A stretch of DNA of 64,000 bases from Bacteroidaceae bacterium (GTDB lineage: Bacteria > Bacteroidota > Bacteroidia > Bacteroidales > Bacteroidaceae), in NCBI GenBank assembly GCA_024697785.1, contig JAILEU010000079.1:1-64000 (forward strand), in the 5' to 3' direction. A program made the position numbers and the translations under genes. Numbering within the stretch: position 1 is the first letter of the stretch; the number at the start of each line of letters is the position of its first letter. Shown here piece by piece: positions 23,329 through 52,321 of the stretch. The notes beneath the pieces are model-generated. The model did no database searches. It was not told where the DNA came from and saw only the letters and a list, made by a program, of their open reading frames with translations.

Positions 23329-23757
23329 ATGGCAACAAAGACAAAGAAAGAGAGTGCTAACACGCGTATCGAAACCCCGCAGACAACCCCGGCACAGCCG
23401 CAGAGCGAGGCCGCCAAGAAAGGCGTACAGTTTACTAACCCATTCACCCTCACACCTAAGGAGGAACGGCGCAAGCGCCTGCACGAAATCACCGGCAAGC
23501 TCGTCGAGGAGGCGAAGGCCACGGGCGACTGTTCCAACCGCAACCAACTGCTGCTGCGCTACTACAAGGACCAGTGCGGGGCTACCGTCCTGAGGACGAT
23601 GGAGGCCTGGGCCGAGCAAGGCAAGCGGGTACGGAAGGGCGCCAAGGCGTTCCTTCTCTGGGACAGACCGCAGGCATCCAGCGAGGAGGAGGCAGGGAAC
23701 TTCTTCCCCATGAAATTCGTCTTCGACATCCGACAGGTGTACAGCGTCAAGGGATAA
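23329..23757 (+). CDS. ArdC-like N-terminal domain protein
   Basis: 142 residues. A disordered Thr/Ala/Gln start (1-40) precedes a domain with the pattern W-x4-G-x-x-V-x-K-G-x-K-A (MEAWAEQGKRVRKGAKAFLLW) and PMKFVFDIRQVY, resembling the N-terminal ssDNA-binding domain of ArdC-type antirestriction proteins. No protease domain follows. It could protect incoming phage DNA from restriction, as inferred from the family. It opens the rightward cluster, begins after the leader AACCATTTAATTCTTATCC, and a hairpin follows its stop codon. Confidence 0.55.
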   Translation: MATKTKKESANTRIETPQTTPAQPQSEAAKKGVQFTNPFTLTPKEERRKRLHEITGKLVEEAKATGDCSNRNQLLLRYYKDQCGATVLRTMEAWAEQGKRVRKGAKAFLLWDRPQASSEEEAGNFFPMKFVFDIRQVYSVKG

Positions 23758-23803: not shown

Positions 23804-24331
23804 ATGCTACGTTACGCCCTGCACGACTACTGGCCAAAGCGCCGCCTAAGACGAGCTTCGTTCGAACAGAAGGAAACGAGCCGCCGCATCCTCGACTTCA
23901 AGGACGGACGCCGCTATGCCACAGCCTGGGCAGCCAGGGAGGTAGCGAAAGCGCTTGCCGCCATCAATCTCCGAGATGTAGTCATCGCCTGCTGTCCCGC
24001 CTCGTGCCAGCGGACATACGTCCGCCGCTACCGTCGGTTCTCGGCTGAGCTGTGCCAGATAAGCGGCGCTGCCGACGGCTTCAGCCATATATCGGTAACC
24101 GGCCGGCGCAGCAAAGTGCACATCGACAGACAGGCGATGGCAGGTGGACAGTGGCTTGCTAACGTTGCCGTCGACGCCGGCTTCTTCCAAGGCAGAAAGG
24201 TAATCATCTTCGACGACATCTGCACGACAGGGAAGACGGCCGACGGCTTTATCAGACTGCTCAGCGATGCCGGGGCTGAGGTCAAGATGGCGATATTCCT
24301 CGGCAAGACAAAACGGTTTATCCATCACTAA
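23804..24331 (+). CDS. Phosphoribosyltransferase-like protein (ComF type)
   Basis: 175 residues. The PRPP-binding signature is clear: VIIFDDICTTGKT (about residues 135-147), with flanking hydrophobic strand and acidic pair typical of type I phosphoribosyltransferases. An upstream CCPASCQRTYVRRYRRF segment resembles ComF-family proteins. Possible roles include nucleotide salvage during lytic growth or a non-enzymatic role in DNA uptake/processing as in ComFC. It lies in the rightward phage cluster between the ArdC-like gene and a small basic ORF. Start at 23804 follows a hairpin by 16 bases. Confidence 0.7.
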   Translation: MLRYALHDYWPKRRLRRASFEQKETSRRILDFKDGRRYATAWAAREVAKALAAINLRDVVIACCPASCQRTYVRRYRRFSAELCQISGAADGFSHISVTGRRSKVHIDRQAMAGGQWLANVAVDAGFFQGRKVIIFDDICTTGKTADGFIRLLSDAGAEVKMAIFLGKTKRFIHH

Positions 24332-50093: not shown

Positions 50094-50145
50094 GAAACTT
50101 TTGTCCCCTCCGGAAAACATTGGCCAATTCACTTGACTGCGTATC
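50094..50145 (+). promoter_or_regulatory. Shared rightward control element B
   Basis: GAAACTTTTGT (50094-50104) and CTTGACTGCGTATC (50132-50145) match element A at 23190-23235 (14-base word with two changes). Confidence 0.45.
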
Positions 50146-50219
50146 CGGCTGCTGCTGATATAAGCACGTCAATAGAAGAAAACCAAGTTCAATTTATGTT
50201 TAACCTTAATTCAATCTCT

Positions 50220-51131
50220 ATGGGAACTGAACTTATGGCCGCTGAACCTACTCAGCAATTCGATTTTACCACCAACAAGGTGCAGTGTATGACACTTGAC
50301 ACGCTCAAGCGAACCGTCAAGGAGAAGGATTGGGACGGCAACCCCGTCAAGGGAATCTACCATTACGAGGCCATCGAGCGGGTTGGCGAGATATGCAATC
50401 GCTACAATCTCAACTGGAGCATCCACGAGATCTTCGCCAGCTCTACTGGACCAAAGGCCATGATGGGCGTGTCTGTCGCTCGAGAACTCGAAGAACAGTA
50501 CGGAGAGAAAGCTGTTGAAGCCCATATCCTCCGCCGCGTCTTCGCAACCATCGACATCCGCAACTGGGAGACCGACGAACTGACAACGGCACTGGCCATC
50601 TCATTCCATCAGGACGGACTAACTTTCGCCATCGGACCTTGCGTCAAGATTTGCCACAACCAGTGCATTCTTGGCGCCCTTCATCGCTGCTCCAACTATG
50701 GAGGAAAGGATAAGCTTACCATCGAACAGATGTTCGAGCGCGTCGACGGATGGCTTAAGAACTTCGAGACCGAGATGACGGAGGACCGCGAAAGAATCCG
50801 CCGCCTGAAAGAGCGGATCTTGTCTGCCACCGACATCTACGTGCTCATTGGTATGCTGGTGACTGAACGCGTCACGCATGACAGCAGCGCCATCAACGCC
50901 AAGATTAGCGATGACGAGAAGGTGAGGCAGTACGCCCTTAACCAGGCGCAGATATCCACGTTTACCGAAAACATGCTGCTGCTATCGCGTGAAAAGGCAG
51001 AACGGGGACAACTCGTCACCGCATGGGATGCCTACAACGTGGCAACCGAAATCTACAAGCCGGGCAAGACAGACTTCCCGTCTATCATCCCGCAAAACGC
51101 TGCCATGGCCGAAATGATACTTGATTTCTAG
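50220..51131 (+). CDS. DUF3871/DUF932-like protein
   Basis: 303 residues. Recognisable pattern: DFTTNKVQCMTLDTLKRTVKEK, VGEICNRYNLNWSIHEIFAS, ALAISFHQDGLTFAIGPCVKICHNQCILG and a charged helix WLKNFETEMTEDRERIRRLKERIL. It resembles DUF3871/DUF932 proteins found on Bacteroidetes plasmids and phages, of unknown function but usually near replication or methylation genes. The start at 50220 (MGTELMAAEP) is chosen from its leader TTTAACCTTAATTCAATCTC, which matches those before the small genes at 24891 and 25179; 50196 is the alternative. A hairpin follows. Confidence 0.55.
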   Translation: MGTELMAAEPTQQFDFTTNKVQCMTLDTLKRTVKEKDWDGNPVKGIYHYEAIERVGEICNRYNLNWSIHEIFASSTGPKAMMGVSVARELEEQYGEKAVEAHILRRVFATIDIRNWETDELTTALAISFHQDGLTFAIGPCVKICHNQCILGALHRCSNYGGKDKLTIEQMFERVDGWLKNFETEMTEDRERIRRLKERILSATDIYVLIGMLVTERVTHDSSAINAKISDDEKVRQYALNQAQISTFTENMLLLSREKAERGQLVTAWDAYNVATEIYKPGKTDFPSIIPQNAAMAEMILDF

Positions 51132-51132
51132 C

Positions 51133-51154
51133 AGGAGGGGCTTCGGCCCCTTCT
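51133..51154 (+). terminator. Intergenic hairpin after the DUF3871-like gene
   Basis: AGGAGGGGC-TTCG-GCCCCTTCT with TTCTT tail. Same class as the hairpins after other rightward genes. Confidence 0.55.
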
Positions 51155-51169
51155 TAATATATTCAAGTC

Positions 51170-51505
51170 ATGAATACGATAGTAATGAAACAGTTCCGGG
51201 ACCTGAAGGCGAAACATCCTGACGCCATCCTCCTGTTCCGGTGCGGCGACAACTACGAAGCATATAACGAGGATGCCGACGCCACGAGTGAAATCCTCGG
51301 CCTGGCGATTCAAAGCGTGCCCGGTACGCGATGGACGCAGTTCCCGCACCACCAGCTGGACATCAACCTGCCGAGACTCGTAAGAGCCGGCAAGCGTATT
51401 GCCATCTGCGACCAGCTTCAGCCGCCGAAGCCGAAAGGGAATACGAGAGGGCTGCTGTTAGAGAAGAAAGCGAAATCAGAGCCGATACAACTAAGCCTAT
51501 TCTGA
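51170..51505 (+). CDS. Stand-alone MutS domain-I-like protein with clamp-binding tail
   Basis: 111 residues resembling the N-terminal mismatch-contact domain of MutS ([63 protein letters not shown]). The clamp and ATPase domains are absent. The protein ends in PIQLSLF, with the pentapeptide QLSLF that binds the bacterial beta sliding clamp. It may act at replication forks without MutS ATPase. It precedes the methyltransferase-like gene by one base. Confidence 0.65.
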
Positions 51506-51506
51506 T

Positions 51507-52292
51507 ATGGAAACAGTAGTGCCGAACCTGGCCAGGGAGATTGAGAAGTTCAGCTACCGAAACGGACTGAGGATGGCCGAGACTCTTACAGCTCTCCTCG
51601 ATTATATCATCGGTTTTGCCGACCCCGACGGCAAGCCTGTTGAAGGATGGAAGTACAACCAGGAGCAAAATGAAGGATTCTACTCGCTGATGAGATGCTA
51701 CTTCCTGACGATGCAGGAAAAGCTGAAGGGAGACAGATGGCATGATGCCTTTGGCGATCTGTTCCTGGAGTTCGGGGCAAACAAAAGCGGACTCGGCCAG
51801 GTATTCACGCCGAAGCACATCTGCGACCTCATGGCCGAATGCTCAATAGGAGAGATAGACGAGGAACCGAAGTTCTGTTGCAGAGGATTCGGCAAGAGAA
51901 TAACAGTCAATGACCCGACATGCGGAAGCGGACGCATGCTGCTGGCCGCTGACAGCGTATTCCGGAAGAGAGAACTGCCGAAGCCTTATCTGATAGGAGA
52001 GGACATAGACCCGACTTGCTGCAAGCAGACGGCGGTGAACATGATGATGCATGGCTGCTTCGGCGAAGTCATCTGCCATGACACACTTACAGAACCAGGC
52101 GAGGTAAGGGTCGGCTACATCGTCAACGAAGGCCTGTATCCGTTTCCCGCAGTTCCTACAATCCGACGCTTCAGCGACCCGGGAAGATTCGTCGGCTGCA
52201 GGGTATGGAACTACAGGAAAACAATAAAGGAGACCGAGCCGACCGGCACAACGGAAAGACTGCCGCAGCCCGTTCAGCTGAGTCTATTCTAA
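51507..52292 (+). CDS. DNA methyltransferase-like protein lacking motif IV, with clamp-binding tail
   Basis: 261 residues. Adenine-methylase fold of the N6_Mtase type: GLGQVFTPKHICDLMAE, motif I as DPTCGSGRMLL and IGEDIDPTCCKQTAVNMMMH. The catalytic NPPY/F box expected after this is absent (VGYIVNEGLYPFP is found in its place), so methylation is doubtful. The C-terminus ends in PVQLSLF, identical in the last five residues to its upstream neighbour. It may bind SAM and DNA at replication forks or be a decoy. A terminator follows at once. Confidence 0.62.
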   Translation: METVVPNLAREIEKFSYRNGLRMAETLTALLDYIIGFADPDGKPVEGWKYNQEQNEGFYSLMRCYFLTMQEKLKGDRWHDAFGDLFLEFGANKSGLGQVFTPKHICDLMAECSIGEIDEEPKFCCRGFGKRITVNDPTCGSGRMLLAADSVFRKRELPKPYLIGEDIDPTCCKQTAVNMMMHGCFGEVICHDTLTEPGEVRVGYIVNEGLYPFPAVPTIRRFSDPGRFVGCRVWNYRKTIKETEPTGTTERLPQPVQLSLF

Positions 52293-52321
52293 AAGAGGGC
52301 ACGCATTGGCGCACCCTCTTT
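52292..52321 (+). terminator. Terminator of the rightward clamp-tail block
   Basis: AAAGAGGG / CCCTCTTT stem with an inner CGC/GCG pair, followed by TTTC. It begins with the last base of the stop codon. Confidence 0.65.

Follow-up and report, generated by a model that had tools for sequence, protein, structure and literature searches.

The peptide QL[S/D]LF is the consensus motif for binding to the sliding clamp, and in E. coli, binding is reduced or lost when its conserved residues are mutated (PMC12309361). The last residues of B. subtilis PolC are exactly QLSLF (PMC12309361). Clamp tails on mobile-element proteins and phage inhibitors that bind DnaN are already known: transposases of mobile elements carry the motif (PMC4549789), and the phage proteins Twort gp168 and G1 gp240 bind DnaN and have been described as shutting off host replication (PMC3594737). 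A further described group is that of the polyvalent proteins, in which a MutS domain I (MutS-I) and an ArdC-N domain occur together about 80% of the time (Iyer et al. 2017, PMC5512222). Outside MutS itself, MutS-I has been stated to be seen only inside such proteins (PMC5512222).

The phage gene pair described here shares with PolC, MutS and the IS transposases the clamp consensus on a C-terminal tail that is predicted to be flexible. In contrast to those proteins, however, the tail is found here on a stand-alone MutS-I protein and on a pseudo-methyltransferase, both in one gene pair, and clamp binding is predicted. The likeness to Twort gp168 and G1 gp240 as candidate clamp-targeting phage proteins is drawn from their described function. 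The polyvalent proteins occur in the same kinds of elements and are built from the same set of domains (MutS-I, ArdC-N, ParB-like, N6 methylase), but they join several domains in one polypeptide, whereas here the domains are split among small genes, a clamp tail is added and the methylase is apparently dead. Our searches, which covered open-access literature, turned up no report of a phage family of clamp-tailed pseudo-methyltransferases, nor of such proteins being paired with MutS-I.

Results

Two adjacent genes with the same C-terminal peptide

The window, by which we mean the whole stretch of 64,000 nucleotides analyzed, has the following features at the locus:

50133..51131, + strand: DUF932-like conserved neighbor, 332 aa from TTG
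51133..51154, + strand: RNA hairpin between the DUF932-like gene and MutS-I; 9 pairs, UUCG loop, −16.7 kcal/mol, z −3.6
51170..51505, + strand: stand-alone MutS domain I protein, 111 aa; C-terminal PIQLSLF, then TGA
51488..51502, + strand: QLSLF codons of the MutS-I protein, a putative beta-clamp-binding motif
51507..52292, + strand: methyltransferase-like protein, 261 aa; C-terminal PVQLSLF, then TAA
52275..52289, + strand: QLSLF codons of the methyltransferase-like protein, a putative clamp motif
52292..52321, + strand: hairpin right after the methyltransferase-like stop codon; −15.8 kcal/mol, z −4.4

A first-pass annotation had singled out two adjacent, unrelated genes that both finish in QLSLF. 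This holds: both open reading frames and both tails are present, and the folds are unrelated, one protein matching Pfam MutS_I (5.6e-20) and the other N6_Mtase (7.9e-12). The pair is carried by a virus integrated in a Bacteroidales-type bacterium. Since a single base separates the MutS-I stop from the methyltransferase-like start and strong hairpins stand on either side, the two genes look like a two-gene unit. The downstream hairpin may mark the end of that unit; the upstream one is a possible terminator or processing site, and a terminator scan did not flag it. The true start of the DUF932-like gene is probably the ATG at about 50220 (MGTELMAAEP).

The tail codons read CAA CTA AGC CTA TTC in the MutS-I gene and CAG CTG AGT CTA TTC in the methyltransferase-like gene. 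Because they differ, a recent DNA duplication of the tail between the two genes was ruled out. Confidence of the AF2 models is low across the two tails (46–61 and 62–79), which suggests that they are probably unfolded or flexible. Both proteins thus offer the accessible QL[S/D]LF or QLxLxF peptide by which clamp binders are recognized.

In the host assembly as a whole (a draft of 3.24 Mb in 201 contigs, 85% complete, searched by DNA pattern), the QLxLF-stop pattern occurs at chance level (10 matches; the reversed control has 17). Only three of these 10 matches end an ORF of at least 100 aa, namely the adjacent gene pair and one QFTLF, and so two tailed neighbors are not a background feature of this genome. 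Indeed, the only two ORFs of at least 100 aa in the assembly that end in QLxLF are the MutS-I and methyltransferase-like genes, and they are adjacent. When all ORF ends in the window were checked, no other one carried the motif. The third gene-like match, QFTLF, closes an ORF of the host, 505 aa or longer (L267; G000:C113:32567-32584), that looks, judged by eye, like a topoisomerase subunit. The assembly contains one DnaN (L230:1111-2235, − strand), homologous to solved clamps and located outside the window, in which no clamp gene was found.

A family of half-size pseudo-methyltransferases

The methyltransferase-like protein shares with HsdM (N6_Mtase, PF02384) its N-terminal helices, FTP motif X, motif I DPxCGSG and an acidic motif II, and the similarity ends near residue 197. 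The SAM-binding motif I and the FTP motif X are both present, FTP being found in 79 of 80 family members, and Q98, F100, T101, D136, G140, S141, R143, D166 and N178 are invariant or nearly so in the family. In contrast to HsdM, the family lacks motif IV and the second half of the Rossmann sheet, measures 210–310 aa against about 500, and has gained a tail. The catalytic motif IV, (N/D)PP(Y/F), occurs in 0 of 80 non-redundant and 0 of 64 aligned members; its alignment column shows VNE, INP and the like, whereas full-length HsdM-type controls matched by the same search do have NPP(Y/F). A canonical active adenine methyltransferase is ruled out by this absence.

In the AF2 model (pLDDT 91.9), strands 1–4 are followed by a single short strand, a helix and then the tail, and the complete seven-strand fold is not reached. 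As the modeled fold ends after strand 4 and the short strand, the latter half of a class I methyltransferase is missing. A Foldseek search of the PDB with this model returned only partial HsdM-type matches. A truncated or frameshifted gene was considered and ruled out, since the homologues share the length range and the end. The protein matches PHROG 5696 (function unknown; 101 bits), an existing phage family, to which our analysis adds the pseudo-enzyme status and the clamp tail. Together, these sequences describe a family of half-size HsdM-like pseudo-methyltransferases, widespread in phages and integrative and conjugative elements (ICEs) and apparently dead. The conservation of the FTP motif, the SAM loop and the family-specific residues suggests that the SAM pocket probably retains some use. 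In one relative, L114 (3983-5648), the pseudo-methyltransferase is split into two ORFs with an NPPF methyltransferase directly downstream, and both proteins finish in a clamp motif (QLTLFD and QLSLFD).

Inheritance of the tail

A scan of viral contigs with the single protein (query P0001) gave no match, and profile scans were needed; searches of viral contigs and genomes with profiles yielded the 80 non-redundant members. Homologues were retrieved through conserved peptide patterns, and all counts given here are therefore those of samples. Counting only the last few residues of each protein, so that internal motifs are missed, we found a METHYLTRANSFERASE-like pentapeptide at the end of 36 of the 80 methyltransferase-like homologues, compared with 15 of the 2659 other ORFs that share their loci. 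Its forms include QLSLF, QLTLF, QLNLF, QLELF, QLDLF, QLTLW and QLSIF. A hexapeptide of the QLxLxF type ends eight more of the 80 (12 of 2659 other ORFs), which brings the clamp motif to 44 of 80 and leaves 45% of the family without a recognizable tail. The enrichment over other ORFs in the same loci has a p of about 1e-47, and reversed motifs end 0 of the 80.

The trait is strongly clustered on a tree inferred after removal of the tail columns: it requires 11 changes, against a mean of 21.1 for shuffled tails, and 0 of 500 shuffles gave a number as low. The window protein falls in a well-supported group of six that are all tailed. Absence or loss is concentrated in two clades, one of ICE type whose hosts belong to the same bacterial family and a short one linked to ArdC-N. 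Enrichment among homologues, inheritance on the tree and the synonymous-only changes in the MutS-I tail (see below) all show that the tail is under selection. In the methyltransferase-like protein, it is an old, selected, family-wide feature. Because 45% of this family and most small MutS-I proteins are tailless, docking would not be needed for the core function.

A MutS domain I without the rest of MutS

The MutS-I protein matches profile positions 3–92 of Pfam domain I, and its AF2 model has the MutS domain I fold followed by a low-confidence tail. It therefore resembles the MutS ATPase in domain I sequence and fold, and host MutS too has a clamp-like motif, but the window protein is domain I only, without domains II–V or the ATPase. 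It also differs at the wedge: the GDFYE motif reads GDNYE in the window and GDSYE in the nearest relative (L150, 75% identical), so that neither has the Phe-x-Glu of mismatch recognition. The wedge Phe is kept in 33 of 40 small MutS-I proteins, and its replacement by N and S makes mismatch recognition doubtful in this lineage.

The relative L150 ends in PVQLSLF. Compared with the window gene, its tail codons differ only synonymously (three of the five), and 12 of the 19 linker codons change the residue. The protein of L147 (55% identical) comes from a prophage of the same genus, where it likewise follows the DUF932-like gene, and its ending is EQLCLCFE. Other endings are VQLELQFT (L079), QLTFDF (L216) and QLSLFDE (L196 and L200), and in L198, QLSLAF lies just behind the domain instead. 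Overall, only five of the 40 small MutS-I proteins in the non-redundant set carry a terminal clamp motif. In the relatives L040 and L041, MutS-I forms the C-terminal part of large proteins. Bacteroides phage B124-14, an isolated phage, encodes a bare, tailless MutS-I of 81 aa (ORF064; L036:2543-2788), annotated as a "putative mismatch repair protein."

These comparisons refine what the first-pass annotation had proposed. Its reading of QLSLF as a clamp peptide is strongly backed by conservation (44 of 80, inheritance on the tree, tails on the nearest MutS-I relatives), and docking on DnaN itself stays a prediction from sequence. The pentapeptide was expected to be conserved among homologues; it is so in the methyltransferase-like family and in close MutS-I relatives, but not in distant MutS-I proteins, the ICE clade or the ArdC-N-associated clade. 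The proposed independent fusion of the tail to both genes fits the MutS-I protein, where only a minority is tailed, better than the methyltransferase-like protein, where the tail is old and family-wide.

Gene neighborhoods in related elements

MutS-I also lies upstream of the methyltransferase-like gene in L079/L241, L198/L199, L218/L219 and L224, on distant branches of the tree. The pairing thus recurs in at least four other phage lineages, and the methyltransferase-like protein is tailed in every one. Loci fetched through MutS-I inflate this co-occurrence; among 74 loci fetched through the methyltransferase-like profile, MutS-I is present in one (L079). In a viral structure library, phage ctZro7 gives the top match to both proteins. 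In seven other loci, an ArdC-N protein takes the upstream place of MutS-I, abutting the methyltransferase-like gene or overlapping it, usually by a few bases, and the methyltransferase-like tail is absent in all seven. In L220 and L228, ArdC-N overlaps MutS-I directly.

The DUF932-like gene adjoins the MutS-I or the methyltransferase-like gene in many relatives. Methyltransferases of the PF01555 family whose catalytic motif is intact (DPPY, DSPY or SPPY) also occur near the family and often have a clamp tail (L003/L094, L073, L077, L141 and L244/L245), in several relatives within 5 kb of the pseudo-methyltransferase. Clamp-tethered methylation may be common in Bacteroidales phages.

Discussion

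We propose that the two genes form a phage module tethered to the host sliding clamp, which probably shields or marks new DNA against restriction or modification; we give this reading an even chance of being right. Both tails would very likely bind DnaN, as their match to the consensus suggests. They could reasonably be expected to bring both proteins to the replication forks of the phage (or host), and the MutS-I domain and the pseudo-methyltransferase would bind the DNA newly made there. There, the pair might shield, mark or read that DNA, with protection or anti-restriction the probable outcome. On this view, the two proteins may act as accessory factors tethered to the clamp, much like the ArdC-N and MutS-I domains with which anti-restriction (polyvalent) proteins bind DNA. 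Anti-restriction is favored because ArdC-N can replace MutS-I and because tailed methyltransferases occur in related elements; this probable role is drawn from gene neighborhoods and from the polyvalent-protein literature (PMC5512222). Blocking of repair, an idea of the first-pass annotation, is weakened by the loss of the wedge Phe insofar as it would involve mismatch reading, and methylation of DNA is weakened by the absence of the catalytic motif.

The tailed proteins could instead be competitive inhibitors that fill the clamp cleft and displace host clients such as MutS and polymerases, shutting down host mismatch repair or replication, with MutS-I and its tail acting as a dominant-negative mini-MutS. 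QLSLF fits the clamp consensus (PMC12309361), Twort gp168 and G1 gp240 stop host replication by targeting DnaN (PMC3594737), host MutS has its own clamp-like motif, QMSFF, and the MutS-I protein would compete for the same DNA sites. Yet such competition for mismatches is doubtful with N in the window and S in L150 at the wedge, two clamp binders that each carry a folded DNA-related domain exceed what inhibition needs, and the SAM-site residues of the pseudo-methyltransferase are conserved. Moreover, blocking the clamp would bring little benefit to a prophage that itself needs the replication machinery of its host, and we consider this explanation unlikely. Alternatively, the pseudo-methyltransferase might serve as the catalytically inert half of a heteromeric DNA methyltransferase, in parallel with two-M-subunit enzymes, and activate a phage or host methyltransferase at the fork, in keeping with the conservation of the SAM site without the catalytic motif. 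Its best relatives, HsdM subunits, act as multimers; several relatives have a tailed PF01555 methyltransferase no more than 5 kb away, and in L114 a tailed NPPF methyltransferase lies directly downstream. However, no such enzyme was found in the window, and most of the 144 partly redundant loci lack one nearby (two candidates by motif plus the PF01555 set), which leaves a partner subunit improbable, if slightly less so than an inhibitor.

That the tail is no clamp ligand at all, but a chance or composition-driven C terminus or a ligand of some other partner, seems very unlikely. The motif is short and is absent from many homologues, but chance accounts poorly for the enrichment (p about 1e-47), the QLxLxF variants in other members, inheritance on the tree, the synonymous-only substitutions in the MutS-I tail and two adjacent gene ends that stand alone in the host assembly.

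Returning to the clamp-tethered module, we advance a broader version tentatively, as a possibility of lower probability than the module itself: in phages and conjugative elements of Bacteroidales, a dead HsdM-like protein that keeps its SAM site would be hooked to the clamp together with a swappable small DNA-binding partner, MutS-I or ArdC-N, as a replication-coupled counter-defense that reads or shields nascent DNA. If the module works as proposed, phages place non-catalytic DNA readers on the replication ring of the host; for PHROG 5696 and the stand-alone MutS-I genes, it offers a testable hypothesis. The clamp tail shared by several unrelated DNA-modifying genes (pseudo-methyltransferase, PF01555, PcfK-like) points to a wider habit of Bacteroidales phages.

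Other observations

Tailed PF01555 proteins were recorded at L003:1672-2334 (QLTLFD), L077:7960-8649 (QMTLFGL), L073:5222-6172 (QLRLF), L244:7656-8339 (QLDMFDM), L225:3058-3810 (QMELF) and L141:524-1198 (QMKLF). PcfK-like proteins (PF14058) ending in QLSLF or QMSLF lie near the pseudo-methyltransferase gene at L073:2039-2569, L075:1985-2575 and L087:6385-6810. A second conserved family, of 377–420 aa and with no Pfam assignment, stands beside stand-alone MutS-I in nine loci (L158, L160, L162, L165, L171, L198, L205, L213 and L224). Grouping the window DUF932-like gene in one family with the 377-aa upstream gene of L198-type loci was unsupported (hhalign probability 0.1).

Elsewhere in the window, an ArdC-N-like protein is encoded at 23329-23757(+) (2e-19 with our own ArdC-N profile, 0.009 with Pfam), followed at 23804-24331(+) by a phosphoribosyltransferase-like gene with a weak PADLOC match to ShosT. 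These two genes form a + strand island among the − strand structural genes of the prophage. Near the contig end, 59128-61491(+) encodes a 787-aa ABC/UvrA-like ATPase (PHROG 21263, E 3e-186), which may be bacterial rather than phage.
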